A DNA stretch of 64,000 nucleotides from Gammaproteobacteria bacterium (lineage in GTDB: Bacteria > Pseudomonadota > Gammaproteobacteria > SZUA-152): contig JAKIUN010000006.1 of the NCBI GenBank assembly GCA_021647505.1, forward strand, positions 36,085-100,084, written 5' to 3'. The notes beneath the pieces were generated by a model. It made no database searches. It had not been told where the DNA came from and saw nothing but the letters and a program-made list of their open reading frames with translations. Of this stretch, positions 31,916 to 59,179 are shown in pieces (position 1 is the first letter of the stretch; each line of letters opens with the position of its first letter). A program made the position numbers and the translations under genes.

Positions 31916-32230
31916 TTATCCAATCACTGCGCCATAGCTACTCCACGGCCACTTGCGCAAGTCTTTCACCATACCCACCCGAATGGGATTCAGGACTACA
32001 TAACGAGACAGCTCCAGTAAGTATCTATCTTTCTGGAAAAGAATCGCCTTGTAACGTCCCTGAAATACATGACCCACCCGGCTGTATCTTCGGTTACTTC
32101 TTTGCGTATAAACACCGCTGAGCTGATGCATTCCCTGGGAGAAATTGCCCTCGGCAGTTTCTATCAGGATATGATAGTGATTGTCCATTAGGCACCAAGC
32201 ATGGCAGCGCCAATTAAACCGGGCGCTCAC
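31916..32230 (-). pseudogene. REP-associated tyrosine transposase (RAYT / Y1_Tnp) fragment, N-terminus missing
   Basis: CHAWCLMDNHYHILIETAEGNFSQGMHQLSGVYTQRSNRRYSRVGHVFQGRYKAILFQKDRYLLELSRYVVLNPIRVGMV is the RAYT core; N-terminal ~40 aa absent. Confidence 0.8.
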
Positions 32231-32765: not shown

Positions 32766-33044
32766 TCAATCCGGCCATTTTCTCGATGTGTGCATGACGC
32801 GGATTATGGTGGCGGCATTCCCTTCGACGCAGTAGGGAAGAATATACGGAAGCCCAGGAATAACCAGCTCCCGCGTATTCTCAACACGCCCGGGCCGACC
32901 TATGCCGGGGTGGTCGGCAAGTTTCAGCGTCGCTTGCTTGATCGCCTCCAGAACCTTGGCCGCAGTAGCCGGATTCTCCTGGAGGATGTAATCGAAGATA
33001 TCATGCAAGTCGATCCTGGCCTTCGAAGACCATTCGATATTCAT
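32766..33044 (-). CDS. ParE/RelE-family toxin
   Basis: WSSKARIDLHDIFDYILQENPATAAKVLEAIKQATLKLADHPGIGRPGRVENTRELVIPGLPYILPYCVEGNAATIIRVMHTSRKWPD. Confidence 0.9.
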   Translation of the reverse strand: MNIEWSSKARIDLHDIFDYILQENPATAAKVLEAIKQATLKLADHPGIGRPGRVENTRELVIPGLPYILPYCVEGNAATIIRVMHTSRKWPD

Positions 33045-33049
33045 GCGGG

Positions 33050-33292
33050 CTACGCTTTTTCGATTTTCTGGCGGATCTCGGCAAGCACCTGCTCATTTGA
33101 AACCGTATTACCGCGTTTGATCTCCTCAATCCCCTCTTCGACCTGCTGAACAAACCATTCCTCGTATTCAAGATAACGCTGGGTCGCTTGGTTGAGCACC
33201 CAAGCCCTGGATCGTCCCATCGCGCTGGCCAAGCGATCTACCCGGTCAATATTTTCTTCATCCATGCGGAGAGAGATATTTCTGGCAGCCAT
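33050..33292 (-). CDS. Ribbon-helix-helix antitoxin (CopG/ParD type)
   Basis: MAARNISLRMDEENIDRVDRLASAMGRSRAWVLNQATQRYLEYEEWFVQQVEEGIEEIKRG immediately 5' of the toxin; start at 33292 preferred over 33412. Confidence 0.87.
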   Translation of the reverse strand: MAARNISLRMDEENIDRVDRLASAMGRSRAWVLNQATQRYLEYEEWFVQQVEEGIEEIKRGNTVSNEQVLAEIRQKIEKA

Positions 33293-33636
33293 GTCATCAC
33301 CTGCATTCATGTAGATTACACAGTAATCATAGCATGTTTCCCACCTAATCGAACATAAATTGTGGTAGCGGTATTGGAGTCTGACCCTGACGACTCGCGG
33401 CCGCACTACCACGCCAGTTGAGTTTTAAGCACGCCTTACAACTCTGGCGGGTTTGGCGACAACAATCAAATTGATGAATAAAGATGAAAGTCTCAGGGTT
33501 TTGTGTTTGCTTATTGCCGAAAACAGAGTGGGAAACCGGCTCGGACGAATTAAATCCGTAACGCCATGATTTTATCGATATCTAATATGACAAAGTAGAA
33601 CTACTAAGCCCGCAGAAAAAACCGGAGGCACAGATA

Positions 33637-36022: not shown

Positions 36023-37333
36023 CTATTTATGGTTATCTCTGCTCACCTGACGCTCCTTCCGGGCGTGAACCTCTCTCTGCGGCTCGGCATCTGCGGCGTA
36101 GGACTTTGTCACCACAATGGCATAGATCTCACTCACCACGGCCAACACAATTCGCGCGGCAAGCATCGCAATCACACCCCAGGTATTCCACACTAAGCTG
36201 GCGAAAAGCGGCCCCATGACCGCACCTGCCTCTTCTCCCAGGCTGAGCTTTGCCATGATGTATGCTCGGTTGCGCCGGTCGAGGTCGGAGTTTTCCGCCA
36301 TCAGGGCGCCCCAGGCCGGCCTGAAGGCAGCCTTGCCCGTCTCATCGATCAGATAGCCACCAATCATTCCCGCCAGATTCGGCGCCACCATGAAGACAAC
36401 GGACGAGGTCACATTGGCAATACTGCGAATCAACAATACCAGCCGTCGGCTCACTCGATCCGAAAGCAGGCCGAATCCGGGGCCCGCAATGAGTATCACC
36501 ACGGCCCCCAGGAGATAAATCGAACCGGTCTGTGCCACGGTCAGGCCGCCGTACTCGACCGCCAGCAGAGGAAACAACCCACCGATCATTTTGGCACTGC
36601 CACTCATGAGAAAGCCCAGCATCATGATCGACCATATCCGGGGTTTGGCTAAGGGTGGTTGATCCTCTGCTTTATGCTCTTTCAAGGTATTATCCGGCGA
36701 CCCTTCTTCCGCCTGATCCGCATCCTCGATTGCCAGCGGAGATGATGCCGCCAGGTTTTCTTTACTCGCTGGCACGAAACGCCAGACCACGAAAATCGCG
36801 ATAAGAGACAGGACGGCGGAGACGGTAAATACCAGCGCAAAGTCCTGCGTTGTCGCTGCCAGCAGTATTCCCGCCAGACCGTAACCGAGTTTGCCTGCGA
36901 TACTTTTGACGGTGCCATACCAGGCAAAGGAGGTTGCCAGGGCATCTTTGGCGCTACGCTCGGCGATAATGGCATGTATCGCCGGATCACGCAGTGACCG
37001 CGAAGCCCCCTGGCCGATTCGAATTGCATAGAGCTGCCAGGGTAGCCAGGCCAGCGCAAAGAGTAACGACACCAGTGAACGCGCAGCCAGGGCGAAAACC
37101 AGACAACGCTTGAATCCACGCCGGTCAGCCAGCCGCCCCATCATCGGCTTCAACAGCATGGCAACGGCAAAATTCACCGATATAAGGAAACCGATCTCGG
37201 CCACGGAAAGACCAAGCTGGTGGGCGTAGAGCGGCAACGCAAAACCGATAATCCCAAAACTGAACCGGGAAGCCAAACCCTCGGCCATAATCGCCAACAG
37301 TGTCGCGTTAATCCCCAGTCGCGTTTTTGTCAT
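36023..37333 (-). CDS. MFS transporter
   Basis: 436 aa hydrophobic protein; GRLADRRGFKRCLVFALAAR, LSDRVSRRLVLLIRSIANV. Confidence 0.88.
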   Translation of the reverse strand: MTKTRLGINATLLAIMAEGLASRFSFGIIGFALPLYAHQLGLSVAEIGFLISVNFAVAMLLKPMMGRLADRRGFKRCLVFALAARSLVSLLFALAWLPWQLYAIRIGQGASRSLRDPAIHAIIAERSAKDALATSFAWYGTVKSIAGKLGYGLAGILLAATTQDFALVFTVSAVLSLIAIFVVWRFVPASKENLAASSPLAIEDADQAEEGSPDNTLKEHKAEDQPPLAKPRIWSIMMLGFLMSGSAKMIGGLFPLLAVEYGGLTVAQTGSIYLLGAVVILIAGPGFGLLSDRVSRRLVLLIRSIANVTSSVVFMVAPNLAGMIGGYLIDETGKAAFRPAWGALMAENSDLDRRNRAYIMAKLSLGEEAGAVMGPLFASLVWNTWGVIAMLAARIVLAVVSEIYAIVVTKSYAADAEPQREVHARKERQVSRDNHK

Positions 37334-37354
37334 CGTCAGCTTGTCCGGGCAGGA

Positions 37355-38173
37355 CTACAGACGCGGCGGCGTCAACGTCACCAGACCTTGGACATAAGCA
37401 TCGATGTAATCGGCAATCATGCCGGCCGCGTCGGGAACCCCTTTGTATCCTGGAAAATAGTTGACATCCACCACGAAGGGGCCCTGCTCGCTCTCGATGA
37501 TGTCAAGCCCATAGAGACCGAGACCACAGACCTTGCCAACCTTCACGGCGATCTCCCGCACCTTCGCATCGATGGGCCCGCTCATACCCGGCACCGAAAA
37601 GCTGGCCGTTGAGAAAGGTTTACGAACGCCGTGTACTTCGTCGCCGGCGACATAGACCTTCAGGTCGATACCGGGACCTTCGATCCATTCCTGGATGATC
37701 ATGGGCGTATCGGTCACGGGAACCTGTGCCAGATCTGCTGCGGTCTCGCAGTAATGGATACCGGCCCCCCGATGACCCGTGTGTGGCTTGACGATGACCG
37801 GGTGTTCGTTGAGCAAGTCCGCCGCCAACCTCAGATTACCCGTCACCCACGATTTCGGTATCGGGATGTTGGCGTGACGCAGCAGACGTGCGGTGATGAT
37901 CTTGCTTTGAACGGCAGAACAAGAGAGGTAGGGGTTCAGTATCCGGGCACCTTGGAGGTGCAGTATTCCTGCCATGGCGCGAGCGAGTTCAGTATGCGAC
38001 TTGAGTAGATAAAAGTCGGCGCTGGGGATCAGTTCGTCCGGGCGCTGCAGGCGTTCTTCGACGATATCCTCGGTGACAGTGTAATCGCGCCGACGGAGGA
38101 TTTCATAAACCTCGATGAGTACCGGCGAAGGCACCGGCGGCACCCGGCGAACCCCCATGAAATGAAGCTTCAT
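37355..38173 (-). CDS. ATP-grasp protein (RimK/ITPK-like) 1
   Basis: 272 aa; [91 protein letters not shown]. Confidence 0.85.
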
Positions 38174-39030
38174 GCCGCGCCCTCCGTGGTGTTAGGTCTG
38201 TCGCTATGTGCCACTGGCGATTCCTGCCGGCCCGCTGCGGAAGCGAGAATTCGAATCCCGGTCAGCGTCACGATAGGCGGCCCCAGCCGGTCATCGCCGT
38301 AGCCGAGATCCCGCATTAGCCGTTGTGCTGCATCGTACTTGCCATAGGTACGGATCAGGCGGGCCTGTTCAGCATCCTGGACATGGCGCCAACGACCGGA
38401 TGATTGCCGGTGCACCTGGCCTGATTCATGGGTCTTGGGGTCTTCCCCCCGGACTTCACGGCGGGCGAAGCGGGTATCGGTCGAGTAACTGGTCGTGAAT
38501 TCACCCGATTCGATCCCCAGCCAGGAACAAAAATCCGTCTTGATCCCGACCGGGTCGGCAACCAAGTCTTCGTAGCGCATGAGGGCGAAACGGTGCCCAC
38601 TCTCCGCCTGGGCCGCCGCGTGATCGAACATCCGCTGATAGCGACTGCGCCAATAATCCCAGTATGCCTCGGAACGGGAAATGCGCTGCTGGCGATCATA
38701 ATCCAGCAGTGAAACAAGTGCATCGCGGGGATCACGGACAAGAAACAGGTAGCGACAACTGGAACCATACAGTCTGTCTATCGCCTCGATGTCATCAAGA
38801 TAGCGGCTGCGCTTGGCGACCAGGATACGTCCCTGTGCGGCAACGGCCAGCCTGCCGAGATCCCGGTAGTCCGTGCCATGTTCGGCCATAAGCAACGCGG
38901 GATGCTCGGCCAGGTAGCGTTTGGCCAGTGTCGTTCCACTGCGTCCGGTACCGATCATGAGCAGCAGGTTTGGGCCGTTAGCACGGGTTTGTTGATACCG
39001 CATTCTCCGCTTCATTCTCTCTTCTCGCAT
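38170..39030 (-). CDS. Sulfotransferase-family protein
   Basis: [23 protein letters not shown] (PAPS loop), [29 protein letters not shown]. Confidence 0.85.
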
Positions 39031-39109
39031 TGTACGGAACGCCGAAACTCACCTCATCGTGTGTGTCTGCGCCACGCTCGTTAACCGGTCTCATCATATA
39101 TCCAGCATG

Positions 39110-40321
39110 TCAGCCAGCAATGGCTGCAGCAGGCATGGGCCGTGACGCCCAAAGTGCCGGCTTGATAGTGATCAGATGACTGCTGCGCGACCAGGTACTA
39201 AGCTGTTTGACGTGTCTGATGGTGCGGCTGACAAAGTCCTGATCGAGATCAACAGCAGAAATAGTTTGCAGCACATACTGCGCGCCGCGATTCTCAATCA
39301 GCGCATGCAACTGGCGGGATGAGGCATCCTCGGGATCGAAATAACACAGAGCGGCTGCGGTCACCCATGACAACGCCTTGGCTTTGGAATTGGCGAGCAG
39401 GGCAAGACTGGCGGCGCCGATGAGGCGTTCCTGCCCACCGAGCTTTCGCAGGGGTTCTCGTCCCACACGTGCAATCGTGTCTCTTAAGGCGCCATTTGAA
39501 AGCCGTTTGCAAATCCGCTGGCGTTCGGCCTTGCCCCCGGAGAAACCGGCACCGTAGCAGAAGTCCAGTCCCCGCTGACCTTCTTTGAGAACCTTTTTCA
39601 CAATACCGCGAATTTCAAGATCCTGTAATGCCGCATGGATAGAATAATAACCCTTGAGATGCCCCAGATAGGCTACGGCAGCATGGGCGGCGCTATAGGT
39701 AAAAAATTTACGGCGGGCGGCGGCGGTGTGATCCTGCACCAACGTCATGCCAGCAATAGTCGGCATGGGCACCCGCAACCCGGCGGCCTCGATCTCACAT
39801 TTCGATTCAGGGTCTGCGGTATAGCGGATCGGGGTATCCGAATCCTGATACCAGCGTCGCCGGCAAATCACACGATGAATTAGCCCGCTGGCAAAACCAT
39901 GTGAGTCCACCGGACCATCCGCAGCCGCCACGGCACGACGGAGAATCGAGCCGGCACCCTCGCAATTTTCAAATGCAATCAGATTCACCGGAGCCCGGCG
40001 ATGTGTCAGCCCGGACGCAATGACGATGCCGAGGCTCTTGAGGTTCGATGGGCCGACACAACTTGCAATGAGATCGGCGGAAACAATCTCGCGAGATAAT
40101 GCGGCCTGGTCTGTCATCTCGATAGCGCGCACACCCTTGACGATGACCTGCTCACGCGTCGGCCCATCGACGAGCTGTATCTCGATGCGTCCGGTTCGGT
40201 TCAGGTGGTCGCGAAGCCGCAGCCCACGAGCCACAAAGACGATCTCATAGCCTGCGGCGTGAAGCATCGGCGCCACGAAGCCTCCCGCCGCACGCCCTGT
40301 TCCAAAAATAACTGCTTTCAT
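39110..40321 (-). CDS. Divergent mannitol-1-phosphate 5-dehydrogenase-like protein
   Basis: MKAVIFGTGRAAGGFVAPMLHAAG Rossmann start; ASCVGPSNL, NLIAFENCEGAG, RKFFTYSAAHAAVAYLGHLKGYYSIHAALQDLEIR, VGREPLRKLGGQERLI align with the MtlD pattern. Confidence 0.78.
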   Translation of the reverse strand: MKAVIFGTGRAAGGFVAPMLHAAGYEIVFVARGLRLRDHLNRTGRIEIQLVDGPTREQVIVKGVRAIEMTDQAALSREIVSADLIASCVGPSNLKSLGIVIASGLTHRRAPVNLIAFENCEGAGSILRRAVAAADGPVDSHGFASGLIHRVICRRRWYQDSDTPIRYTADPESKCEIEAAGLRVPMPTIAGMTLVQDHTAAARRKFFTYSAAHAAVAYLGHLKGYYSIHAALQDLEIRGIVKKVLKEGQRGLDFCYGAGFSGGKAERQRICKRLSNGALRDTIARVGREPLRKLGGQERLIGAASLALLANSKAKALSWVTAAALCYFDPEDASSRQLHALIENRGAQYVLQTISAVDLDQDFVSRTIRHVKQLSTWSRSSHLITIKPALWASRPMPAAAIAG

Positions 40322-41151
40322 AATCTCGTACCCGTTTGAGTAGTGCCCGCAGGCGGCCGTTTTAGCGTCAGATGGCTCGACAGATAATCGGCAATTCGTG
40401 TAGCCGCGTTGGGAACCCCTTTAAAACCGGGAAAGGCCGACATATCGACCACATAAGGCTTGCCATCGCTGATGATGATATCCACGCCAAAGGTATCGAT
40501 GCCAAAAACATCGCCGCAACGTTTAGTCAGGCCGAGCAACTCTGGCCCTACCGTGAAGGGAGTTCCCTTTTTTTCCTCGTATGTTTTGGCGGGAAACTTG
40601 CGCAGAACACCGTAAATATGCCCACCGATTGAATAGATTTTACGATCCAGGCCATCGGCATCGGGTGGGTGGTAATGCTGAGCGAGATGTACCCCCCCCA
40701 GCGGCCGAATATCATCCGGCGAGCGAATCAGTCGAACCCCTTGCCCTAGATGGCCCCGATAAGGCTTGACTATGAGCGGCCCGGTATCCAGCAGTTCATG
40801 CACATGCTTCGCCGTCAAGACGGCCACGGTATAGGGCACAGGGATGCCCGCCCTCTGTATTTTTTGCGTGGTGAGTACCTTGTCCCGCAATGTAGCGGTG
40901 ACGGGATACGAATTAAGTATCCGGGCACCCAGCCCATGCAGAAGACCCGCGTAGCTAAGGCTCAGATCGGAGCCGGAGGGCTTGAGCACGTACAAATCGT
41001 GTTCGATGCAAACCTTCGAAAGATCAATCATGTCCCTGCCGGGATAAATCTCATCCACCGTGCCCCCCCAGGAGCGCAGTAAACCGATAACCTGACGCAG
41101 CCACGATCTGGAGCTTGGCCGTTTATGTCCGAGAATAAATCCGATCTTCAT
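40318..41151 (-). CDS. ATP-grasp protein (RimK/ITPK-like) 2
   Basis: 277 aa; YVLKPSGSDLSLSYAGLLHGLGARILNSYPVTATLRDKVLTTQKIQRAGIPVPYT, GPLIVKPYRGHLGQGVRLI, PYVVDMSAFPGFKGVPNAATRIADYL. Confidence 0.85.
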   Translation of the reverse strand: MKIGFILGHKRPSSRSWLRQVIGLLRSWGGTVDEIYPGRDMIDLSKVCIEHDLYVLKPSGSDLSLSYAGLLHGLGARILNSYPVTATLRDKVLTTQKIQRAGIPVPYTVAVLTAKHVHELLDTGPLIVKPYRGHLGQGVRLIRSPDDIRPLGGVHLAQHYHPPDADGLDRKIYSIGGHIYGVLRKFPAKTYEEKKGTPFTVGPELLGLTKRCGDVFGIDTFGVDIIISDGKPYVVDMSAFPGFKGVPNAATRIADYLSSHLTLKRPPAGTTQTGTRL

Positions 41152-41978
41152 GAGCGTGCACTCTTCGCGGTATTTAAGACGAACTCGGCGATCCGATCCC
41201 CGGCATTCTCGACGCGTGTGTAATTTGGGAAATCATTGATCTCGATGACCTGCGGACCCTGCGCAGAAAGTACGCAGTCAACGCCGTACAGGGCGAGATC
41301 GAATATTGCCGCGCAGCGCCGAGCCAGGCGGTAGAGGCTAGAGGATGTCGACAGTTCTTCGGCGGACTCATCTGATGTCATGCCAGCGCAGTCAACCAGT
41401 GGACTGGGTTTGCGCACCGCCCACACGGAACCGCTGATGCCATAGAGTTTCAGATCCAAGGGGTCGCCTGCGACAAACGCCTGAACGAGTGCAAAGGACT
41501 CTCGCCATTCAAGCCGTTCGAGCTGTTCCCGGTCACGCAGCAAAATAACATCACGACCGTTATCGCCGAAAACAGGCTTGATAACCACGGGAAACTCCCG
41601 GATGTACTCACGGAGCTTCGCCACCGGGCTGAGCCAGGTTCGTGGAGTGGGAATTCCCTGGATCCGAAATGCTTGAGCCATGCGCCACTTATCGACAACG
41701 GCCGCAATTGCATGAGAAGCATTGATCGTCAGAATGCCTCTTGTTTCAAATTGCGCCAGCGCCTTAAGCAAAGCAGGGCTCCGGCCACGAGCAACCACTA
41801 AATCCACATTCAGCACGGGTGTTTCGAAAAGTTCTTCTATGGTAACCAGGGAAACCGGCACATTACGCCGGAGAAGCGCACGAACAAAGTCAACGGGCTG
41901 GCTCTGAGCAAGGTAGCGCTGTTCACATAGCACAACGATGGACTCCATTTTAGCTAACCCTCTAGCCTGTCTCACCAT
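41148..41978 (-). CDS. ATP-grasp protein (RimK/ITPK-like) 3
   Basis: 276 aa; FPVVIKPVFGDNGRDVILL, LALYGVDCVLSAQGPQVIEINDFPNYTRVENAGDRIAEFVL; possible start MESIVVL at 41948. Confidence 0.83.
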   Translation of the reverse strand: MVRQARGLAKMESIVVLCEQRYLAQSQPVDFVRALLRRNVPVSLVTIEELFETPVLNVDLVVARGRSPALLKALAQFETRGILTINASHAIAAVVDKWRMAQAFRIQGIPTPRTWLSPVAKLREYIREFPVVIKPVFGDNGRDVILLRDREQLERLEWRESFALVQAFVAGDPLDLKLYGISGSVWAVRKPSPLVDCAGMTSDESAEELSTSSSLYRLARRCAAIFDLALYGVDCVLSAQGPQVIEINDFPNYTRVENAGDRIAEFVLNTAKSARS

Positions 41979-42098
41979 GAATCCTTTCCCTCAAAAATGG
42001 CTGCTCTGATTTCTTTAACAATTAAAATTTGAGACAGAGATTTATTTTTACAGCTTTACTCGAGTTTATCCTCGGCTAAAGTTGTGGCACGAAAAACA

Positions 42099-42315
42099 GA
42101 TTAGAGTTCAGTGGAAATTTAATAAAAACTTACAATCCGATTAGAGCTGGGAAATCATGAATCAAGCATACGATTGCTGCATGATAAATATACTAAGGCC
42201 TAGTGAAAATTCGATAATAATTTACAACAAATAGACTGGCCTTACGCAAGACGTATTAAACGTATCACTGCCACATTAATAATAGATTAAGATTTAGTGA
42301 AAATTCAATTAAGGG
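42099..42315. repeat. Degenerate ~93-bp direct repeats (about 2.3 copies), AT-rich
   Basis: Anchors: gattagagttcagtggaaatttaataaaaacttacaa; ctaaggcctagtgaaaattcgataataatttacaa; gattaagatttagtgaaaattcaattaa, with agtg at 42110, 42202 and 42296. Confidence 0.6.
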
Positions 42316-42502
42316 GCGTGCTCAGTGATTTCACCGAAAGTTTTGCAGGAAAACCACCAGGAAGCTGCCGGACTTAGATGACCATAACGAGGAGGCAAGA
42401 CAGCAGAGAACCACCAAAGTCAGGTACTCTGAAGCAATCGCAGGCGCTTTTTTTGAAGGACCTATTTTAGGTTGGCGACGTAAGAACAGCTGCCGAGTAG
42501 AT

Positions 42503-43072: not shown

Positions 43073-43521
43073 GAGGGGCAGATTAATTCAAGCAAGGCCG
43101 TACCGGCAAGTGGACACATTCTGACGGCCAACAAAAAAACTGGCATGTAATCTGCTTGCCTCATCCGAAACCCTTAAATAGGCCTACCAAGCGTCATGAA
43201 ATCGTCAACTCTCATCTGGCTTGAAAAACACACCCCGCCCACGGTGTCGGGCACGGATCATTTTTCCATCGATGATCACGAATTGCCCCCCCCCCAACAC
43301 GTCGTATAGTAGTGACGACAGGGTGCCACTGATGATTGGCAAAAGGCCCGCAACACCCACCCCTGTATGTGGAGTTTTCCTCTGTTGACGCCCGGAATTA
43401 CCGCTACAGACCACAGTGTTGGAACCGATACCCGACAGTTTCCAACACCAGGCCGATAACCAGCAGTGGCTACCATGTCATCACCAACCTAGCTACCTTT
43501 CATCTCCCGCGAGATTAGCCA

Positions 43522-45462
43522 ATGCAAAATACCCTGACTGAGTACGCTGGAAAAAACAAAGATACCTTGCACAACAATCTTGTTGCTCTGGAAAAACACC
43601 ATCCGCATATTTACCGCATGGTGGAACCGTTGCTAGACACGGTCAGTATACGCCTTGACCCCCAGGAAACCCTGTATATCACAAGAAATGGGCAACAAAT
43701 CATTATATCTAAGCAGCGCAGAGACGCCGTACTCGCCACAGTGGTAATACCAGAAATCCGAGAGCCGGTTCACCTGCTCGTGGGACTGGGTGTTGCTGAT
43801 GAACTGTTGGCAACATACCGAAACACAGAGGCCCCAAGACCGGAGCTACCAAGCTATAAATTACCCATCTATATCCTGGAGCCCGAACCCCTGATGCTCA
43901 TCGCTGCAATGTGGTTACATAATTTGATGCCACAGCTAAACTCTGGGCGAGTGCAGTTATTCCTGGGCGTAAATGCTTCCGATGAACTGCTGGAATACCT
44001 GGAATCAAACCATCAATCCCAGTATCCAACACATTCACTATCGATGTGGTACCCAAATGATCATCCTGTGGTGCACAACACCTTTGATGGCATCAAGCAA
44101 TTGATCGACCGAACCAACGCTGCCGTATACAAGTTGGAAACAGACATCAATGACTATTACAAAAAATTTACTAATAATGATTGGCATGAGGTCTTCACGT
44201 CGAGAACCCGCCCCCTGCGGGTGATGGGCTGTACATCGCGGTTTACAAGCTTCCTGCAATATTGCGTCAGGGATTTGATATCAGGGTTTGAAAGGCTCGG
44301 CCATCAAGCACTAATACATATCGAAGAATCGGACATCAGCCGAGCCACAAAATATGACATCCTATCCACCATCCTATATTTCAAGCCGGATCTCATAATT
44401 CATCTCGATCATTTCAGGGATGAGTGGCCATATTTGCCTGCAAATGTTCCATTCGTGAACTGGATACAGGACATGCTACCAAACATTACGAAACCTGATG
44501 CTCGCATCCTACACCCGCTGGACTTTACTTACGTTTTTGCCCCTGGATGGCTAAACAAACTGAAAAGCATGCCCATGTATGCAAAACATCCGATCAATGT
44601 TTTGACCCTCGGCATCAACCCGGATATCTATCATCCCATCAGCAATACCACGAAGGACATAGATCTTCTGTATGTTTCACACCTGGTGAGCGTTGCTAAC
44701 ACCTTGCGGCCGCTGGTCGACACATTGAAAAATTTTGACATCGATGACAAAGAAATAGAATTATTGGACACTGGCGCCATCAGCTATGAACAGCTACTAG
44801 TTGTCTACATGTTGATGACAAAAACTTTCGACAACCTGCTGATAGATGACCTCTGGAAATACGTCGGCAACAACCAAGTTCGTCGATCACTTGTTACACG
44901 AACTCTCGCCACCGCCGGTATCGAGGAAAATGACATCGTTGTTGAGCATTTCTTTAACTCGCGGCGCATCCACAACGACATCTACTACGCAATAAAAACG
45001 AGGCCTCTTAAAACCCTGGCAAAACAAGGCGTGAACCTCCAAATCTATGGTAAACACTGGGATCAGGACAGGGAGCTTTCCAGATTTTCACACGGCCCTA
45101 TCGACAACGGTGAACCACTCAACATGTTGATGAATCAGTCGCGCATCTGCCTGAACAACAGCCCGGGTACCTCTTTGCATATGCGATCAGTTGAAATTAT
45201 GGCCTCGGGATGTTTCATGCTGAGCCGGGAAATTGAACCCGACACCTCCAGTATCCGGGAATATTTTGACGACCAGGACGGCCTCGGATTTTTCAAGAAT
45301 GAAATTGACATAGGCCCGATAACAAAGTATTGGCTGGCGCAGGATAATCTGGATAAGATAAGTGCGCCTGCCCACAAAAAGGCGCTGGCGCTATTCGATT
45401 ACAAAGTAATCACTCAAACAATTATTGATAATGTATCTGCCAGGTGCAAAAATACGCAATGA
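43522..45462 (+). CDS. Large CgeB-like glycosyltransferase-family protein
   Basis: 646 aa; C-terminal LNMLMNQSRICLNNSPGTSLHMRSVEIMASGCFMLSREIEPDTSSI matches the CgeB/glycosyltransferase tail. Confidence 0.7.
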   Translation: MQNTLTEYAGKNKDTLHNNLVALEKHHPHIYRMVEPLLDTVSIRLDPQETLYITRNGQQIIISKQRRDAVLATVVIPEIREPVHLLVGLGVADELLATYRNTEAPRPELPSYKLPIYILEPEPLMLIAAMWLHNLMPQLNSGRVQLFLGVNASDELLEYLESNHQSQYPTHSLSMWYPNDHPVVHNTFDGIKQLIDRTNAAVYKLETDINDYYKKFTNNDWHEVFTSRTRPLRVMGCTSRFTSFLQYCVRDLISGFERLGHQALIHIEESDISRATKYDILSTILYFKPDLIIHLDHFRDEWPYLPANVPFVNWIQDMLPNITKPDARILHPLDFTYVFAPGWLNKLKSMPMYAKHPINVLTLGINPDIYHPISNTTKDIDLLYVSHLVSVANTLRPLVDTLKNFDIDDKEIELLDTGAISYEQLLVVYMLMTKTFDNLLIDDLWKYVGNNQVRRSLVTRTLATAGIEENDIVVEHFFNSRRIHNDIYYAIKTRPLKTLAKQGVNLQIYGKHWDQDRELSRFSHGPIDNGEPLNMLMNQSRICLNNSPGTSLHMRSVEIMASGCFMLSREIEPDTSSIREYFDDQDGLGFFKNEIDIGPITKYWLAQDNLDKISAPAHKKALALFDYKVITQTIIDNVSARCKNTQ

Positions 45463-46277
45463 AAAATGACAGCCCGGAAAGCCATGTATTCTATGTGACA
45501 TCCCGAGGATATGCTGCCGACCATTGGTATGCTTGGTTCGTAAAGGCGCTCAACGCACACCCTGAATTACTGGCATACCTGGCCAACGAGGGATCCCGAC
45601 CGAAATATTTCACCGAAAAAACCCGGGCAGAACGACCAGACATCGTGCAATACACCCGGTTCATGGCTGACGTCGGCATGACATACACTGGCATAGGCGA
45701 TTGCTACTCATATCGCGCCAACAAGCTTGATCAACTATTCCGCGAGTTTGGTGATACAGTCCGCGTCGTCAACCTCGTCCGCCACCCCTATGCATGGCTT
45801 CGATTCTATGTGCGCTGGCGTATGCACAACATGAGAATGTCCAATGGACAGGGCGCCCCCATTGAACATGAATGGCGTATATCCAACCACGAGCTATTTA
45901 AGAAGCTAGGCCTGCGCGATTACACCAAGAGCGACATTGAAATATGGGCGACATACCAGGGTATGCATCATCTCAACAACATCCTCGACGACTACTCTGC
46001 CAACATTAAACACATACCACTTGAACAACTCGTTAAAAGTCGGGAAACATTTCTTGAGGTGGTCAACTATCTCACTCACAGAAGAATTACGTACAGCAAT
46101 AACTTGCTTGATACCATTTACAGCTGGGTTTGGACGCCCTTTCGTGGTGAGGGAAGACTAGCCGTAAATCCTGACAGCGAAGCCCTGGATTGGCCCAACT
46201 GGAAAATAGAAGCCTTTGAATTATTGCATAGCGAAAAAGCGAGAAAATGTTATGAGCAATTCGGTTACCGCTATTGA
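45459..46277 (+). CDS. Sulfotransferase-like protein
   Basis: FYVTSRGYAADHWYAWFVKALNAHPEL, VRVVNLVRHPYAWLRFYVRWRMHN; ATGA overlap with the upstream gene. Confidence 0.65.
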   Translation: MKNDSPESHVFYVTSRGYAADHWYAWFVKALNAHPELLAYLANEGSRPKYFTEKTRAERPDIVQYTRFMADVGMTYTGIGDCYSYRANKLDQLFREFGDTVRVVNLVRHPYAWLRFYVRWRMHNMRMSNGQGAPIEHEWRISNHELFKKLGLRDYTKSDIEIWATYQGMHHLNNILDDYSANIKHIPLEQLVKSRETFLEVVNYLTHRRITYSNNLLDTIYSWVWTPFRGEGRLAVNPDSEALDWPNWKIEAFELLHSEKARKCYEQFGYRY

Positions 46278-47091
46278 GTCTGTCTCACAAAGTGAAACAG
46301 GCCCCATTATCATGTCCTCGGTGTTTAAGTCCGGCACTTGGCTGCTACGATTCATTGTCGAAAGACTCACTGGCCTTAGCTGCTATGAGCCCCCCATTAA
46401 GGCCGGAGCAATGGATCCTACCGATCCGGATCTGATAAGCATCAAGGCGGGCCACTTTTATTCATGGCACTTTATCCCATCGTCTCCAGTTCAGGAGAAG
46501 CTGATACGAATCAACGCAAGGCCGATATTTCTGATGCGTAACATCTACGATCTGGTGGTTTCCATGTACTACCATTTTGCAAATAATATTGATCATGAAA
46601 TCGGTAGAGGAGCTAACAAACACGGCTATTTTTCCCTCCTTGGAAAAGATGCCGGAATTCAGAAAATCATAACTGGCTGCGACGATACAGAATTTAAATG
46701 GAGAGGTATCGGCCATCATCTTCACCAGATGGAGTGCATGTTTCAATTTGCCAGTGTATTTCCCTGTCACCTTGCCGGCTATGAGGACATTGTCAGCAAC
46801 AAGGAAAAAAGCATCCGGGCACTCGCCGAATTTCTGGATATCTCCCTACCTCTGAACGATCTCGATGAACTGGTGCGCAGCTCTGGCTTTGACGCCATGA
46901 AATCTTCTGCACTAAAACAAAACAAGGCTTCCCACTTCCGGCAAGGAAAAATACAATCACACACCCATGAACTTAGCCTAAAACATATCCAGGAAGTACA
47001 GGAATGTCTCGAAAAATATGCACCAAAATTGGCCCCACTGGCCACTCGGGCAGGTTTCAACAGCCTGTTGAACGAGTCCATGGCCCAGTAG
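46252..47091 (+). CDS. Sulfotransferase-domain protein
   Basis: IIMSSVFKSGTWLLRFIVERLTGL, PIFLMRNIYDLVVSMYYHFANN, HLAGYEDIVSNKEKSIRALAEFLDISL. Confidence 0.8.
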   Translation: MSNSVTAIESVSQSETGPIIMSSVFKSGTWLLRFIVERLTGLSCYEPPIKAGAMDPTDPDLISIKAGHFYSWHFIPSSPVQEKLIRINARPIFLMRNIYDLVVSMYYHFANNIDHEIGRGANKHGYFSLLGKDAGIQKIITGCDDTEFKWRGIGHHLHQMECMFQFASVFPCHLAGYEDIVSNKEKSIRALAEFLDISLPLNDLDELVRSSGFDAMKSSALKQNKASHFRQGKIQSHTHELSLKHIQEVQECLEKYAPKLAPLATRAGFNSLLNESMAQ

Positions 47092-47098
47092 ATCACAG

Positions 47099-48238
47099 AT
47101 GAAAATTGGCGTATTTCTTCCCCAAAAGAATCACTTTTACCAACATATCGCAGCGGCACTGAAGACGGCCTTCGAAGCCCACGGGCTAGAGACCTACTGT
47201 GACCTCGCCTTATATAAGCCAAAGGCCCTGTCTCGATTTTGCCGGGAATTCAAACCGGATTGTATTTTCGAGATGAACAGGTCTCGAAGCGAACTGCCGG
47301 AATTACCCGGGAGCATCATTCATATTTCGTGGATCGTCGATCTGCTGGGCCGCGATATCGATGATATCCAGGAAAGTGAAATAATCTACTTCTTTGGAAC
47401 CGGCTGGAAGGACATCCACACCAACAAACATGCATCCCTGGTTGACTGGTTGCCAGCGGGATTTTGCCCCCAGACTTACAAACTATGCCATAGTCGGAAA
47501 ACTGTGGATTTCTCCTTCATCGGGCATATACCTCGGCCATGGTCTAGTGCAGAGCTGGAGCGTATTGTCGGTACCGGTGACGCTGACCCATACACCTTCG
47601 AACAACTATTTGAACAGTGCAGATTGACGTGGGCCAAACATGGTGGGTTGCATCAACTACGACCCGAGCAGTACCTGCATCTGGTGGCGGAGGTACTGGC
47701 CAATGGTACAAGAGCTGATTTTCGTATTTCAGATCGCACCATGAAGTACGATATTGAAACGCGCAGCACACGAATGATAAACCGACAGCACGCGATCGAT
47801 TCAGCCCTTTCGGTATCCACCGCTATTTCCATTCATGGCTCCACAAACTGGCTTGAGTGGGATCGTTATCGGCCCCATTACCGCGGTTACCTCAACAGTC
47901 ACCAGGACATTCGTGAAGTATACCAGAGGTCAAAGCTCAACCTGCATGAGGGAATCGGGTTACATTTTCGCACCTTGGATTGCATGGGGGCTGGCGGTTT
48001 ACTCGCGTTCAAGCCTACCAGCCGGGACGGTGATCCTGACGGCATCAACAGTCATTTCGAGCCCTTCCGACACTACATACCGCTGGATATAGGTGGTGAC
48101 CGCAAACACCTGAAGTATTATTTGCAAAACGAAAAGGAAATATCGAGAATTGCAGAGGAAGCCTCGAAGCTGGCTCACCAACAACATACATGGCAGGTTC
48201 GATGTAAAAAAATAGTGGCTGACATCGCCTCGTTATAG
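47099..48238 (+). CDS. CgeB-like glycosyltransferase
   Basis: VYQRSKLNLHEGIGLHFRTLDCMGAGGLLAFKPTSRDGDPDGINSHFEPFRHYI. Confidence 0.75.
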   Translation: MKIGVFLPQKNHFYQHIAAALKTAFEAHGLETYCDLALYKPKALSRFCREFKPDCIFEMNRSRSELPELPGSIIHISWIVDLLGRDIDDIQESEIIYFFGTGWKDIHTNKHASLVDWLPAGFCPQTYKLCHSRKTVDFSFIGHIPRPWSSAELERIVGTGDADPYTFEQLFEQCRLTWAKHGGLHQLRPEQYLHLVAEVLANGTRADFRISDRTMKYDIETRSTRMINRQHAIDSALSVSTAISIHGSTNWLEWDRYRPHYRGYLNSHQDIREVYQRSKLNLHEGIGLHFRTLDCMGAGGLLAFKPTSRDGDPDGINSHFEPFRHYIPLDIGGDRKHLKYYLQNEKEISRIAEEASKLAHQQHTWQVRCKKIVADIASL

Positions 48239-48244
48239 AGTGCG

Positions 48245-49513
48245 TCAGGAAGTGCTTGATCGATTCAACCATGCCGTAAATCTATCGACAAAACGCTCTA
48301 TGGCATACTTTTTCTGAGCGACCTCAATATTGTCACTGAACTGGCTGAGGTCAATATCTTCCAGCATCTTGACGAGATTCGATCTGTCGTCCTTTCCCAC
48401 CACGATACCGATCCCGTTTTCAAGCACAAACTCCGCCATATGGTTGAGTTCCTCACTGACAATTACCGGTAGCCCAGCAGACAAATAGGTGAAAAGCTTG
48501 CTGGCCATGGTCTCCCGCAGGTGAGATTTTCCAACCGCGAGACCCCGGTCGAAGTCGAACAACACCAAACCGTAGTCATACTTTCCGTGCAAGGCGCGTA
48601 TGATATCCGGCATATCAATTCCCTCGCGGAACACAAAGCGTGGATTGTTCCGCATCTCCCGGTGATAATCACTAAACAGATCCTGGCAAAGCTCCCGGGT
48701 TGAGAATACGGAATTAAACACCGTCAACTCCGCTCCTTGTTGCGTCAGCTCGCGAATCAAACTCAAATAATCAAGATCCCCGAACACCGCAACCGGCGCC
48801 TGATTGTTCATGACTTGCCCGGCATACACCAAGCGGATTCCGCCGGCCCAACCATGCCGCTTGGGCGCTTCCATCCACTGCGACGGGGGACAGGGATACA
48901 ACTGCATGGATGAAGTTTTCGCCTCCATCAATTTCCCCTCAATCCAACTTCCATTATCCTTATGGATCAGTAAATCACTATGTTGCCGCGTATAGGCCTC
49001 GTCTTCGATGATCGTCTCAATTTGCAATTTATCGAACATCCCGGAATCGATAAACTGGCGAGAATCACCGATAAATGACTCCATCCAATCGTAGACCTCA
49101 TGTGCAATTTTCAACCCGGAATTCAACTCGCGAATCCTTCTGAACAGGAAAATCCAGCGCCCATGCGCCTGCAAATAAAAATGCACCGGAGGAAGCTGAC
49201 TGACGATTGCGTCAAGGTCTACCAGACTCTTGTCACAATGAAACAGGGCATGATATACATTTTTTGGTGGCCGCGACTTGAGATAAATCCCATAGGTGCG
49301 ATACTGGCCCTTATCACTGATGGTCGACGCGATGTATTCAATGCTGGGAAAATTCCCACGATTTACTGCAACGAACACCAATACAGGAACCCCATCGCAG
49401 ATCGACATCCTGATATCCGATACCAGTTCTTCAGGAGTCGAAAACAAAACCTCGTTATTTTGTTGGTTGCGGGATGATGAAGGCCTGACTACTGTATTCA
49501 CTATCATATCCAT
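48245..49513 (-). CDS. Glycosyltransferase (group 1-like)
   Basis: RETMASKLFTYLSAGLPVIVSEELNHMAEFVLENGIGIVVGKDDRSNLVKML is the GT C-terminal donor-site pattern. Confidence 0.75.
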   Translation of the reverse strand: MDMIVNTVVRPSSSRNQQNNEVLFSTPEELVSDIRMSICDGVPVLVFVAVNRGNFPSIEYIASTISDKGQYRTYGIYLKSRPPKNVYHALFHCDKSLVDLDAIVSQLPPVHFYLQAHGRWIFLFRRIRELNSGLKIAHEVYDWMESFIGDSRQFIDSGMFDKLQIETIIEDEAYTRQHSDLLIHKDNGSWIEGKLMEAKTSSMQLYPCPPSQWMEAPKRHGWAGGIRLVYAGQVMNNQAPVAVFGDLDYLSLIRELTQQGAELTVFNSVFSTRELCQDLFSDYHREMRNNPRFVFREGIDMPDIIRALHGKYDYGLVLFDFDRGLAVGKSHLRETMASKLFTYLSAGLPVIVSEELNHMAEFVLENGIGIVVGKDDRSNLVKMLEDIDLSQFSDNIEVAQKKYAIERFVDRFTAWLNRSSTS

Positions 49514-49587
49514 TAGAAATGCCGAAATTCTATTAGTCAGGTAACGCCATTGAAGCGCAACCTATTATGTTACATCAAAAGCGAAGT

Positions 49588-51573
49588 TCACTCGGCCACT
49601 GTCATCGCATCAAGCTGCGGTTGACACATGTTCCCCGCATCAGTTTCGTTGGGTTCGGTGAGTGTGAACGATTGATTCCAGGAAAGTATCCTGTCGCTGC
49701 TGACACCAGCCTTCAACAGAAGATCCATGGCAGCCCGGTACTCAACCCAGGGCAGGATCAGAAAAGCGGCATGAATATTATCTTGTACACTGCCGGGGTC
49801 GAGCATCTTCGTGACCTGCCCCAGAAACATCTCCCCGATACGGCCTTCCCTGCTGTCCAACACTGCGGTCACATTTAGGCCGCGCAGTGAAATATCGTCA
49901 CTAAATACCGAAAAATAGCGATCCATCGCCGGCAATACCACTACCTCTGTGCCGGTAAGTACCAGCCGATCAACATGCTGCTGAAAATTCGCGAAAATAT
50001 CACTGATATGGGGAATTTGAATGGCGGCCAAATGCATCTTTCGACAGCAGGAGGGGCATAAAATATTGACTCCTAGCATCCCGATGGGCGCGTCCCGATT
50101 TACATAACCATCATCACGGGAATCCAAGGGATACCGGAAATCGGTGTGTATATTATGCGTGCACGAAGGACACTCAATGACCAGTTTTGACAACCAGCTG
50201 CCCGCATACTTCGATGCCTTTACCCTGGCCAGCCGCTTGCGGTGGTTCAGATCATTAACCTCGCGTAGCTTGATGTACCAGTCCGCATATTGTTCATCAG
50301 TCATTCGGGTCATGTTGATCTGGTGCTTGTAGAGATAATCAGAGATATTGCACTGACTGCGAATGAATGCCTCCTTATCCTCGATCAGCCCCTTATTGAA
50401 GGCACCATCGAATATCTGCGTTCCGGCATAAGGGATGACTGCCGACCAGTCGGTGAAATAAAGCTCGTTTTCCTGCTGAAAGCGCAGGCTCTCCTCGATT
50501 GTTTCCATGGATTCAGCGGGGTCGCCGAAGAGAAAATTTGCCTGAAATCCGACATTGGCCTTTCGAGATATCTTTACTGCATTAGCAATATCTGAGGCCT
50601 TTATCTTTTTCCTCATGCTGCTCAGCACTGTATCTGAGCCACTTTCAAAACCAAAGGAAATATAGTTGCATCCCGAATTTTTCATTAAATTCAACAACCC
50701 CTGATCCAGTTGATCCACACGCAACTGGCAAAACCACTTGATATTCAGCTGCCTTTCCAGAAGCAGCTCGCAAAATTCTTTTATACGCTTGCGGTTCGCT
50801 GAAAAAAGCTCGTCATAGATGGAAATACATGAAACCTTATATTTCTTAATGTATTCCTCAATCTGATCCACCACCCGAGAAATATCATGACGTTTGTATT
50901 TCCCCATGCCAGCATGGTGACAGAATGTACACTTGAATGGACATGAACGGCTGGCCAGGATCGGTATGGACTGTCCCATGTCGTATCGAACCAGGTGATA
51001 GCTGACTTGTGCACTCCTCTGAATGGCGATATGCCGCTCAATGCCCATCAAATCCAGGTCTGGCTCCTCCAGCGTATTCAGGTCCTCAACCTCTGGACCC
51101 TTTCCGGTATAAAACGGTGTATCTCCCATCCAACACCAGATCCCAGCCACTGAGGAAGGAGGATACTCACCAGCAATGGCCTTGAGAAGGTTGACAAAAA
51201 TCACCTCCCCCTCATTGACAACCATGTAATCAGGTTTCAGGGTTCGCATCACAAGCTCCCCCTCACAGGAGGTAATTCCTCCCCCCAATACAATGGGGGT
51301 TTTGAGACTGACACTCCTGATCGTCTTAATCAATTTCTCAATTTCGTTGAAACAGACGGTGAGCCCGGTGATACCAATCACGTCGTATTGCCCATCTTCA
51401 ACGCGACTCATCAATAATGCGTACCGATCCGGGGCAGGATAGTGATTCAGGTTGAATCCATCGACGTCATGCCCTCGCGCTTTGGTATAGGAAGCCACAT
51501 AAGCCAGTCCCAAGGGGAAGTACGCTGCATTGACCTGCGGATGATAGGACGGTGCCAGCAGAAGTATTTTCAT
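49588..51573 (-). CDS. B12-binding-domain radical SAM protein with extra C-terminal domain
   Basis: Cobalamin-type N-term (YHPQVNAAYFPLGLAYVASYTKARGHDVDGFNLN), SRSCPFKCTFCHHAG (CxxxCxxC), GFESGSDTVLSSMRKKI; C-terminal CPSCTHN...CPSCCRKM and a Rossmann-like tail. Confidence 0.87.
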   Translation of the reverse strand: MKILLLAPSYHPQVNAAYFPLGLAYVASYTKARGHDVDGFNLNHYPAPDRYALLMSRVEDGQYDVIGITGLTVCFNEIEKLIKTIRSVSLKTPIVLGGGITSCEGELVMRTLKPDYMVVNEGEVIFVNLLKAIAGEYPPSSVAGIWCWMGDTPFYTGKGPEVEDLNTLEEPDLDLMGIERHIAIQRSAQVSYHLVRYDMGQSIPILASRSCPFKCTFCHHAGMGKYKRHDISRVVDQIEEYIKKYKVSCISIYDELFSANRKRIKEFCELLLERQLNIKWFCQLRVDQLDQGLLNLMKNSGCNYISFGFESGSDTVLSSMRKKIKASDIANAVKISRKANVGFQANFLFGDPAESMETIEESLRFQQENELYFTDWSAVIPYAGTQIFDGAFNKGLIEDKEAFIRSQCNISDYLYKHQINMTRMTDEQYADWYIKLREVNDLNHRKRLARVKASKYAGSWLSKLVIECPSCTHNIHTDFRYPLDSRDDGYVNRDAPIGMLGVNILCPSCCRKMHLAAIQIPHISDIFANFQQHVDRLVLTGTEVVVLPAMDRYFSVFSDDISLRGLNVTAVLDSREGRIGEMFLGQVTKMLDPGSVQDNIHAAFLILPWVEYRAAMDLLLKAGVSSDRILSWNQSFTLTEPNETDAGNMCQPQLDAMTVAE

Positions 51574-52241
51574 GTTGTTATCTGTAACTCCCCATTGTTG
51601 TAGTCATCAATAGTTTTCGTGCTCTATGTGCCCAGACCAGTGCACCAGACACCGTGTCAAACGTTGCCCGCGAATATTCATCAACCCCTTTGGACAGCAT
51701 GATCCAACTCATCCTGATTCTGGAAGTCGCCATCACTCAGGCATGTCTTTTCCACGATCGGGTGTGGCACATCATTGCCAAAACCCAATACTCTCGCTAG
51801 ATTTCCCAACGTATTATCATCCACTCAGTTCAAGCCCATGGGCACATTCCGTACATGTGGAACCCTATCGACAAGGCAAAACTTGTGCCAACAAAGCATA
51901 CCGCCTAACCTCGAGAAGCTGTCACCTATTTTCATTTCCGGCCAACGTGTTTAATATCGAAAAATTTTACCCGCAGCCGGTTCGCCGATTTCGAACAAAA
52001 TACCTGTTTTATTCAGGGCATATACCTGCCAGAACCTGGGAAGGATTGCCACTTGCCAGTCAATACCCGGCCATCCAGTGATAAAATGTCTGAACCATGA
52101 ACGAACCAATTCACACACCTAGACAGCACAGGCAAGGCTCCAATAGAGAAGTAATGTCCCGCGAGCAATATTTTCCGTGTATTGGCACAAAATATGCTCT
52201 GTGCACCCAAGACAGCAATAAGCAGACTTTAGAAGGATGCC

Positions 52242-53405
52242 ATGAAACCATCACCCCTCGTCTCTATCGACGCCCCCATACAGCCGGCCACGCCCACAGC
52301 GACACTCGATCGCTTCGCCATCGACAGCCACAAGCTGATCTACCACCCCCATCGTGTGGCCCAGTGGCTGGATGCGCGGGACGACTGGGACGCGGCACGT
52401 AGTGTGTACCCCATCTATGTAGAGATGTCCCCGGTGGGGGCCTGCAATCATCGCTGCCGCTTCTGCGCGGTGGACTACATCGGCTACCAAGCCAAGCGCC
52501 TGGATCTGGAACAGATCACCCCCAGACTGCAGGAAATGGGAAATTTGGGGGTGAAAAGCATCATGTTCGCCGGCGAAGGCGAGCCTCTGTTGCACAAGCA
52601 GCTGCCAGAGATGATTGAGGTCTGTGCCGACAGCGGTATCGACACCGCCATCACCAGCAACGCCACGGTGGTGTCCGACAAGTTCCTCGACCGCGCCCTG
52701 CCCCACGTGTCCTGGTTCAAGGCCTCGGTGAACGCCGGCAGCGCCGAAACCTACGCCGATATCCACCAAACCCGTGCCGATGATTTCCACAAGACCCTGG
52801 ACAATCTGCAGCGCCTGGTGGCGCACCGCGACCGGCACGGCCATCGCTGCACCCTGGGCGCACAGTCCCTGCTACTGCCGGAAAACCGACACGAAATGGT
52901 CAAACTGGCAAGATTGTGCCGCGACCATATCGGCCTCGACTACTTGGTGGTCAAACCCTACTCCCAACACCTGTTCAGCAATACCCACACCTACGAAGGC
53001 ATTATCTACGAGGACATGAACCAACTGGCCAGCGAACTGGCGGCGGAGAACCGTGACGGTTTCAGCGTGGTATTCCGCAGCAATACCATGCGCAAGCTCG
53101 GAGAACAGCAGGAACAGCGCTATCCCCGCTGCGGCGCCACGCCCTTCTTCTGGGCCTACGTGATGGCGGATGGCTCCGTGTACGGTTGCAGCGCCTACCT
53201 CACCGACCGACGTTTCAATTACGGCAATCTCAACCAGCGAAGCTTCGAGGACATCTGGCAGGGCGAAGAAAGGAAAGCTAATTTCAGTTATGTGCAAAAA
53301 CAACTGAACATCCGCGACTGCCGCACCAATTGCCGCATGGATGATATCAACCGCTACCTGCACGCCCTGGCGACGGACAGCGTGGCGCATGTGAACTTTA
53401 TTTAA
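52242..53405 (+). CDS. Radical SAM/SPASM-type protein 1
   Basis: GACNHRCRFCAVDYIG (CxxxCxxC), FAGEGEPLLHKQ, C-terminal YGCSAYLTDRRFNYGNLNQRSFEDIWQ...IRDCRTNCRMDDIN. Confidence 0.88.
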   Translation: MKPSPLVSIDAPIQPATPTATLDRFAIDSHKLIYHPHRVAQWLDARDDWDAARSVYPIYVEMSPVGACNHRCRFCAVDYIGYQAKRLDLEQITPRLQEMGNLGVKSIMFAGEGEPLLHKQLPEMIEVCADSGIDTAITSNATVVSDKFLDRALPHVSWFKASVNAGSAETYADIHQTRADDFHKTLDNLQRLVAHRDRHGHRCTLGAQSLLLPENRHEMVKLARLCRDHIGLDYLVVKPYSQHLFSNTHTYEGIIYEDMNQLASELAAENRDGFSVVFRSNTMRKLGEQQEQRYPRCGATPFFWAYVMADGSVYGCSAYLTDRRFNYGNLNQRSFEDIWQGEERKANFSYVQKQLNIRDCRTNCRMDDINRYLHALATDSVAHVNFI

Positions 53406-53469
53406 CGATGGCCATTGAGCAGACAACACAACGGCAAGGCTTGTGCAAAAACCACTGCAGGAGCGACTG

Positions 53470-53537
53470 TAGGATCGGACCCTTGGGCCGCAATGCCAAG
53501 AGTGGGAAAATCATTGCGGCCCAAGGATCCACTCCTA
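53470..53537. repeat. REP-like/terminator-like palindrome
   Basis: taggatcggacccttgggccgcaatg...cattgcggcccaaggatccactccta. Confidence 0.65.
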
Positions 53538-53658
53538 TACATTGTTCAGGGCAATAAAATTATTTCGCTGCACCAAAAGTAGGCGCTTGAGGCGAGCAGC
53601 GGGGAATCCAACCCGAAGAGATTAAAACTGTTTGTTTTTGCATTGAGGAGAACAACCC

Positions 53659-54648
53659 ATGAAGGCACTGGTCACTGGCGGCGCGGGATTCATCGGCAGC
53701 CACCTGGTCGAACGACTGATCCGCGACGGCCATCAGGTCATCGCCCTGGACGACCTTTCCAGCGGTCGCTGGGAAAACCTGGCGCCGGTAAAGGATGTCC
53801 CGGGCCTGCAACGGATCGAGGCCGACATCACCAACAAGGCAACCATCCGCCCTCACTTCGACGCTGTGGACTGGGTGTTCCATCTGGCAGGCAAAGCCGA
53901 CATCGTGCCTTCCATCGAACATCCCGATATTTATTACGCGGCCAATGTGCAGGGAACTTTCAACGTGCTGGAATGTAGCAGGACGGCAAACATCAAGCGG
54001 CTGATTTATGCCGCCTCCTCTTCCTGCTACGGCATCCCCGACATTTTTCCGACACCGGAGAGCGCCGAGATCCGCCCTCAGTATCCCTACGCCTTGACCA
54101 AATATTTAGGCGAGGAAATGGTGTTGCACTGGGCGCAGGTCTACGGCCTGCCCGCCCTCTCCCTGCGCCTGTTCAACGTCTACGGCCCGCGTTCACGCAC
54201 CACCGGTGCCTACGGCGCGGTGTTCGGCGTATTTCTTGCCCAAAAACTGGCGGACAAGCCCTACACGGTGGTTGGCGATGGCAACCAGAGCCGCGACTTC
54301 ACCTACGTCAGCGACGTCGCCGATGCCTTTGCCTGCGCTGCTGCGGCCAATATCAGTGGCAAAATTTTCAATGTTGGCAGCGGCCACCACTACAGTATCA
54401 ACGAACTAGTCGGCCACCTCGGCGGTACAGTGGAATACATCCCCAAACGCCCCGGCGAACCCGACTGCACCTTCGCCGATATTCAGCGTATTCGCACACA
54501 ACTGGGCTGGGAGGCCAAGGTGGATTTCGCTACCGGTGTCACCCGCATGCTCGAATCCATCGAACTTTGGCACGAGGCGCCGTTGTGGGACGCTGACTCC
54601 ATCCACAACGCCACCCGCAACTGGTTCAAATATCTCGGAGATCACTGA
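53659..54648 (+). CDS. NAD-dependent epimerase/dehydratase
   Basis: ALVTGGAGFIGSHLVERLIRDGHQV, YAASSSCYG, YPYALTKYLGE, RLFNVYGPRSRTTG. Confidence 0.92.
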   Translation: MKALVTGGAGFIGSHLVERLIRDGHQVIALDDLSSGRWENLAPVKDVPGLQRIEADITNKATIRPHFDAVDWVFHLAGKADIVPSIEHPDIYYAANVQGTFNVLECSRTANIKRLIYAASSSCYGIPDIFPTPESAEIRPQYPYALTKYLGEEMVLHWAQVYGLPALSLRLFNVYGPRSRTTGAYGAVFGVFLAQKLADKPYTVVGDGNQSRDFTYVSDVADAFACAAAANISGKIFNVGSGHHYSINELVGHLGGTVEYIPKRPGEPDCTFADIQRIRTQLGWEAKVDFATGVTRMLESIELWHEAPLWDADSIHNATRNWFKYLGDH

Positions 54649-54649
54649 C

Positions 54650-56810: not shown

Positions 56811-56830
56811 GCGCCGCCATGGACGAACCG

Positions 56831-59141: not shown

Positions 59142-59179
59142 TACTTCATCAAGGTAATAACGAACCGCAAGGAAACACC

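Follow-up and report, generated by a model that had tools for sequence, protein, structure and literature searches.

A 64,000-nucleotide stretch of the draft genome of an uncultured gammaproteobacterium (here called the window) contains a six-gene operon that we read, with a probability of roughly 0.55, as dedicated to making and exporting a small, secreted metabolite that is sulfated and has a phosphorylated sugar or polyol as its scaffold. The operon encodes three ATP-grasp enzymes (AG1, AG2 and AG3), a relative of mannitol-1-phosphate dehydrogenase (the MtlD-like protein), a sulfotransferase and an MFS transporter. By sequence, the three ATP-grasp enzymes appear to constitute a distinct, undescribed subfamily outside RimK, LysX and MptN. 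Among the open-access papers searched for ATP-grasp enzymes together with a sulfotransferase and MtlD or MFS proteins, none describing such a gene set was found; an earlier, sequence-only reading of this DNA had not recognized the combination either.

Layout and conservation of the operon

The sequence-only reading had placed a six-gene operon at positions 36023-41978, and six long open reading frames (ORFs) are present there (Table 1), with their families borne out by Pfam (ATP-grasp three times, the N- and C-terminal Mannitol_dh domains, Sulfotransfer_3/_1 and MFS_1). Transcription runs from AG1 through AG2, the MtlD-like gene, the sulfotransferase gene and AG3 to the MFS gene. There are 4-nt overlaps at three junctions (AG1/AG2, AG2/MtlD-like and sulfotransferase/AG3) and gaps of 79 nt and 21 nt at the remaining ones, matching the pattern of 4-nt overlaps, gaps of about 20 nt and one 79-nt gap reported before. 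The same reading had five of the six genes running in one direction, but the ORF coordinates put all six on the minus strand. None of the six proteins matched PADLOC models of anti-phage defence, and we therefore dropped the reading of the operon as a defence system.

Table 1. Positions in the window of the operon genes, the candidate seventh gene and the leader.
Feature	Position	Strand	Remarks
AG1, ATP-grasp, 276 aa	41148..41978	(-)	subclade A; metal motif EIN-DFPNY
AG2, ATP-grasp, 277 aa	40318..41151	(-)	subclade B; metal motif DMS-AFPGF
MtlD-like predicted reductase, 403 aa	39110..40321	(-)	Pfam, residue alignment
PAPS-type sulfotransferase (predicted), 286 aa	38170..39030	(-)	Sulfotransfer_3/_1; motif GTGRSGTT and second co-substrate motif
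AG3, ATP-grasp, 272 aa	37355..38173	(-)	subclade B; ITPK-like metal motif
MFS transporter, 436 aa	36023..37333	(-)	MFS_1
Candidate seventh gene, CBM9-like/DUF5916, 762 aa	33637..35925	(-)	
Operon leader, 524 nt	41979..42502	(-)	three 33-nt direct repeats

All six genes are carried in the same order by a second species of the host's genus, a Chromatiales bacterium MAG (G001). Its operon is split over three contigs, with AG1, AG2 and the MtlD-like gene on C822, the sulfotransferase gene, AG3 and the start of the MFS gene on C913, and the end of the MFS gene and the DUF5916 gene on C361; because the contig ends fall within or between operon genes, the order agrees wherever it can be followed. Between the host and G001, protein identity across the six genes is 81-93%, highest for AG3 (93%), and dN/dS is 0.12-0.26 (AG1, 0.18; AG2, 0.25; MtlD-like, 0.14; sulfotransferase, 0.26; AG3, 0.12; MFS, 0.19-0.26), so the six genes are selectively maintained. 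Since the gene order recurs in G001 under purifying selection, we conclude that the operon is not a chance arrangement. The CBM9-like/DUF5916 gene follows the MFS gene after 97 nt, a position that it also occupies in G001. With a dN/dS of 0.10 over its N-terminal 167 codons, it is a possible seventh gene of the operon.

The sequence-only reading had turned on the genes being conserved together, and this holds narrowly: only one other species, of the same genus, was found to carry the full set. At the thresholds used, the remaining five genomes sampled from the genus lacked the ATP-grasp clade, as did the rest of the sampled order, a number of these assemblies being incomplete drafts. A scan of genome contigs for the MtlD-like protein, using exact-peptide patterns that reach close relatives, matched only the genus relative. 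With the full set known from two species of a single genus, the shared order could in part be an accident of a single ancestral arrangement.

The leader repeats (GAATTTTCACTAAATCTTAATCTATTATTAATG type) lie at 42274-42306, 42180-42212 and 42088-42120, spaced by 94 and 92 nt. Two are clearly kept in G001 and the third weakly, and no further copies were found elsewhere in the window. Their fit to a PhoB box was weak by eye, and that assignment was rejected. Past the leader come a tPilZ gene and, on the opposite strand, genes for glycosyltransferases and for a heptose-like sugar; flagellar genes lie on the far side of the operon. The GC-poor (0.46-0.49) segment at 43400-51700 contains sulfotransferase-like genes as well as genes for two CgeB-type glycosyltransferases and for a B12-binding radical SAM protein. 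This block is missing in G001, where the SPASM radical SAM gene directly adjoins tPilZ, and we regard it as an accessory glycan island. Positions 52242-60559 hold two SPASM radical SAM genes together with GmhA-like, HldE-like, epimerase and pyruvate-dehydrogenase-E1-like alpha and beta genes, none of which reaches its curated cut-off; this cluster probably encodes an unusual heptose-like sugar pathway. By eye, a putative ParE/RelE-type toxin/antitoxin pair was seen at 32766-33412 and a transposase-like fragment at 31916-32230.

Sequence features of the operon proteins

In a tree of 40 proteins, AG1, AG2 and AG3 of both species form one clade (support 100/99) with single proteins from G059, a genome of a distant order, from G307, of the same family as G059, and from a Nocardia plasmid. 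This clade of nine is separate from RimK, LysX, MptN and GAK proteins. The G307 and Nocardia proteins fall with AG1 (subclade A) and the G059 protein with AG2 and AG3 (subclade B), with finer placement unsure because several branches are long. The C-terminal block previously described as common to the three operon proteins (272-277 aa) was seen in our sequence comparison.

The profile and structure searches proposed earlier place these proteins nearest to RimK, LysX and ArgX (TIGR00768, TIGR02144; PDB 3vpb, 3vpd, 5zct), with which they share the fold, profile similarity, the ATP-binding Lys and the first metal Asp, and yet they form their own clade and score below the RimK cut-off (TIGR00768: AG3, 79; AG2, 58; AG1, 82 bits; cut-off 143.4). 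The metal motif also differs, with DxN or ExN followed by FP in the clade (DxN-FP in AG3 and in the G059, G307 and Nocardia proteins) rather than the ExN-SPG of RimK proteins. In our alignment, LysX, a phage RimK and almost every RimK row contain the substrate loop FRSNxHRGG, which all nine proteins of the clade lack. Residues R211, H215 and R216 of this loop line the glutamate site of RimK, while contacts to the substrate come from Arg189 and Asn262 (PMC10092738). The position of Arg189 is Lys in the clade and Gln in G307. The third metal ligand of AG2 is Ser instead of Asn, likewise in G001, and this enzyme could, judging from its residues, be weak or inactive.

At the place of the metal motif, human ITPK1 reads DIN-AFPGYEGV, and AG3 and the G059 protein share with the ITPK/PPIP5K family (PF05770; PDB 2q7d, 8oxe, 3t9b) the C-terminal motif DxN-x-FPG(Y/F)-x-GV; a Lys in the DLK strand is a further likeness. 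Against the Pfam ITPK gathering threshold of 23 bits, which the relatives from G059 and Nocardia exceed, AG3 scores 56.7, AG2 22.5 and AG1 22.1. Unlike ITPK/PPIP5K enzymes, which have about 320 residues or more, the operon proteins have 272-277, and AG1 carries ExN. When an AlphaFold model of AG3 (pLDDT 86) was searched with Foldseek, the top matches were ArgX, LysX and RimK, at TM values of about 0.8, followed by PsnB, PPIP5K2 and ITPK. Taken together, the fold ranking, the DxN-FP motif and the absent loop indicate a RimK/LysX fold with an ITPK-like metal motif from which the RimK substrate site is gone.

The MtlD-like protein is about 30% identical to MtlD proteins over its whole length. Aligned with eight MtlD sequences, it keeps Lys205, Asn119, Glu118, His213, Arg288, Arg292 and Arg299. 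In S. aureus M1PDH the catalytic residues are Lys200, Asn119 and His208 and the phosphate pocket consists of Arg283, Arg287 and Arg294 (PMC6623548), corresponding to Lys205, Asn119 and His213 and to an intact three-Arg pocket (R288, R292, R299) here. Relative to all eight MtlD proteins, the oxyanion Asn205 is replaced by Ser210, Asp31 by Ala31 with Arg32 next to it, and GAGNIGR by GTGRAAG; thus the Asn-Lys-Asn triad and the NAD-binding Asp31, invariant in the eight, are incomplete. Replacement of Asp31 by Ala-Arg and of GxGxxG by GxGxxA are usual signs of NADP preference in dehydrogenases. Given the likely NADP(H) preference, a phosphorylated substrate and the changed carbonyl site, the protein is predicted to be a biosynthetic, NADPH-linked reductase of a sugar phosphate other than that of MtlD. 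The sequence-only reading had called it mannitol-1-phosphate-dehydrogenase-like, and homology to MtlD (NF002652 and others; PDB 3h2z) stands, including the catalytic Lys and His, one oxyanion Asn and the phosphate pocket. By curated score (at best 209 bits on the NCBIfam MtlD equivalogs, cut-off 356), cofactor or catalytic residues, however, it is not an M1PDH, and the DSAVDR motif is changed as well. The annotated MtlD genes that we compared adjoin mannitol PTS, PRD-regulator or mtlR genes, whereas the operon gene has no such neighbour.

The sulfotransferase scores 59.4 and 45.2 bits on Sulfotransfer_3 and Sulfotransfer_1, above the cut-offs, and carries both PAPS co-substrate motifs, so that it is predicted to be of the PAPS-dependent type.

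ATP-grasp/MFS linkage outside the order

In G059, the subclade-B ATP-grasp gene (36% identity to AG3) is divergent from and adjacent to an MFS gene whose product is 38% identical to the window's MFS protein. Among 339 genomes of the class, this MFS subfamily occurs only in the host and in G059, both of which carry the ATP-grasp clade, and for this reason the ATP-grasp and MFS genes are likely a core module. A search for the MtlD-like protein that included G059 gave matches in three genomes, of which G059 is not one, so the reductase lies outside the core pair; the ATP-grasp and MFS genes would then be a minimal module, with the reductase and sulfotransferase as elaborations. Counting against our reading of the operon, G307 has a clade member (AG1-type) and no detected MFS-subfamily gene, in a draft about 85% complete whose contig stops just past the ATP-grasp gene.

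No more members of either clade appeared in 399 genomes of the phylum samples under strict thresholds with few candidates scored per genome, nor did viral contigs yield a relative. Overall, the genomes sampled represent part of those known. On plasmids, the matches were ordinary MtlD and RimK proteins, the one Nocardia clade member and one Rhizobium MFS remnant lacking related neighbours. The Nocardia gene (L042:7785-8651) is a lone member of the ATP-grasp clade and lies near the DISARM gene drmD and genes for a PP2C and a Ser/Thr kinase. The remnant, on a Rhizobium leguminosarum plasmid (L061:15121-15366; 47% identity over 103 aa), suggests that intact relatives of this MFS subfamily exist in alphaproteobacteria.

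Proposed pathway and alternative readings

From the observed anatomy, conservation and residues we infer the activities, the order of steps and the product as follows. The MtlD-like enzyme would use NADPH to reduce a sugar (ketose) phosphate. In consecutive steps driven by ATP, the three ATP-grasp enzymes would attach acyl/amino or phosphate groups; the sulfotransferase would transfer sulfate from PAPS, and the MFS protein, judging from its context, would export the product. No gene names the scaffold, a point against this reading. The sequence-only reading had likewise proposed a small-molecule pathway with sulfation and export, and the genes present, their conserved order and the linkage of ATP-grasp and MFS genes elsewhere are consistent with a pathway of such predicted activities. 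Between the two products it had offered, the peptide-like conjugate is weakened, because the operon ATP-grasps lack FRSNxHRGG and ExN-SPG, and the modified polyol phosphate is strengthened by the intact three-Arg pocket.

Some alternative readings concern what the ATP-grasp enzymes attach. Small peptides are known to be made by ATP-grasp ligases encoded next to efflux genes, as in bacilysin BacD/BacE. The operon shares with that system an ATP-grasp gene adjoining a dedicated MFS gene, but differs in ATP-grasp subfamily and size and in its added sulfotransferase and reductase. That RimK-type ligases here add amino acids to form a short peptide conjugate, as this pattern, the RimK/LysX fold and the best profile matches would allow, strikes us as highly improbable: all three proteins fall far below the family cut-off (58-82 against 143 bits), the RimK loop is missing throughout the clade, and the operon has no amino-acid-making genes. 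Alternatively, the enzymes may be ITPK-like phosphotransferases acting on a polyol or cyclitol phosphate, giving a multiply phosphorylated, sulfated polyol. The AG3 metal motif matches that of ITPK1 rather than the ExN-SPG of gammaproteobacterial RimK loci, and the Pfam ITPK scores of AG3 and of the G059 and Nocardia relatives, the loss of the RimK loop with Lys in place of Arg189, and the kept phosphate pocket of the MtlD-like protein all favour this idea; even so, we consider it rather unlikely, as ArgX, LysX and RimK outrank PPIP5K2 and ITPK in fold, AG1 reads EIN, AG1 and AG2 score slightly below the ITPK cut-off, the glycine-rich loop (GHRGAG) is ligase-like, and ITPK is known from eukaryotes and Lokiarchaeota (PMC8024741). 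The fuller version, in which the whole clade comprises bacterial ITPK-like phosphotransferases on a RimK fold and the operon makes and exports a multiply phosphorylated, sulfated sugar alcohol, is in our judgement distinctly unlikely; if true, the product would be of a kind previously undescribed in bacteria.

The surroundings raise another alternative, that the operon serves to modify a glycan of the surface or the flagellum instead of producing a free metabolite, since it sits between a flagellar block and a heptose-like sugar cluster (GmhA-, HldE- and epimerase-like) with glycosyltransferases and further sulfotransferases. We find this quite improbable: the operon has its own leader and lies on the strand opposite to the glycan cluster, in the 20 kb of G059 that were read, no glycan cluster accompanies the ATP-grasp/MFS pair, and lipid-linked glycans are not usually moved by MFS proteins.

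The operon points to a distinct ATP-grasp subfamily without recognized function, whose motifs lie between those of peptide ligases and inositol phosphate kinases. This subfamily is linked to a dedicated MFS gene and is here joined with a sulfotransferase and what looks like a re-tooled MtlD. Whether AG3 is by nature a ligase or a kinase bears on the origin of ATP-grasp kinases.
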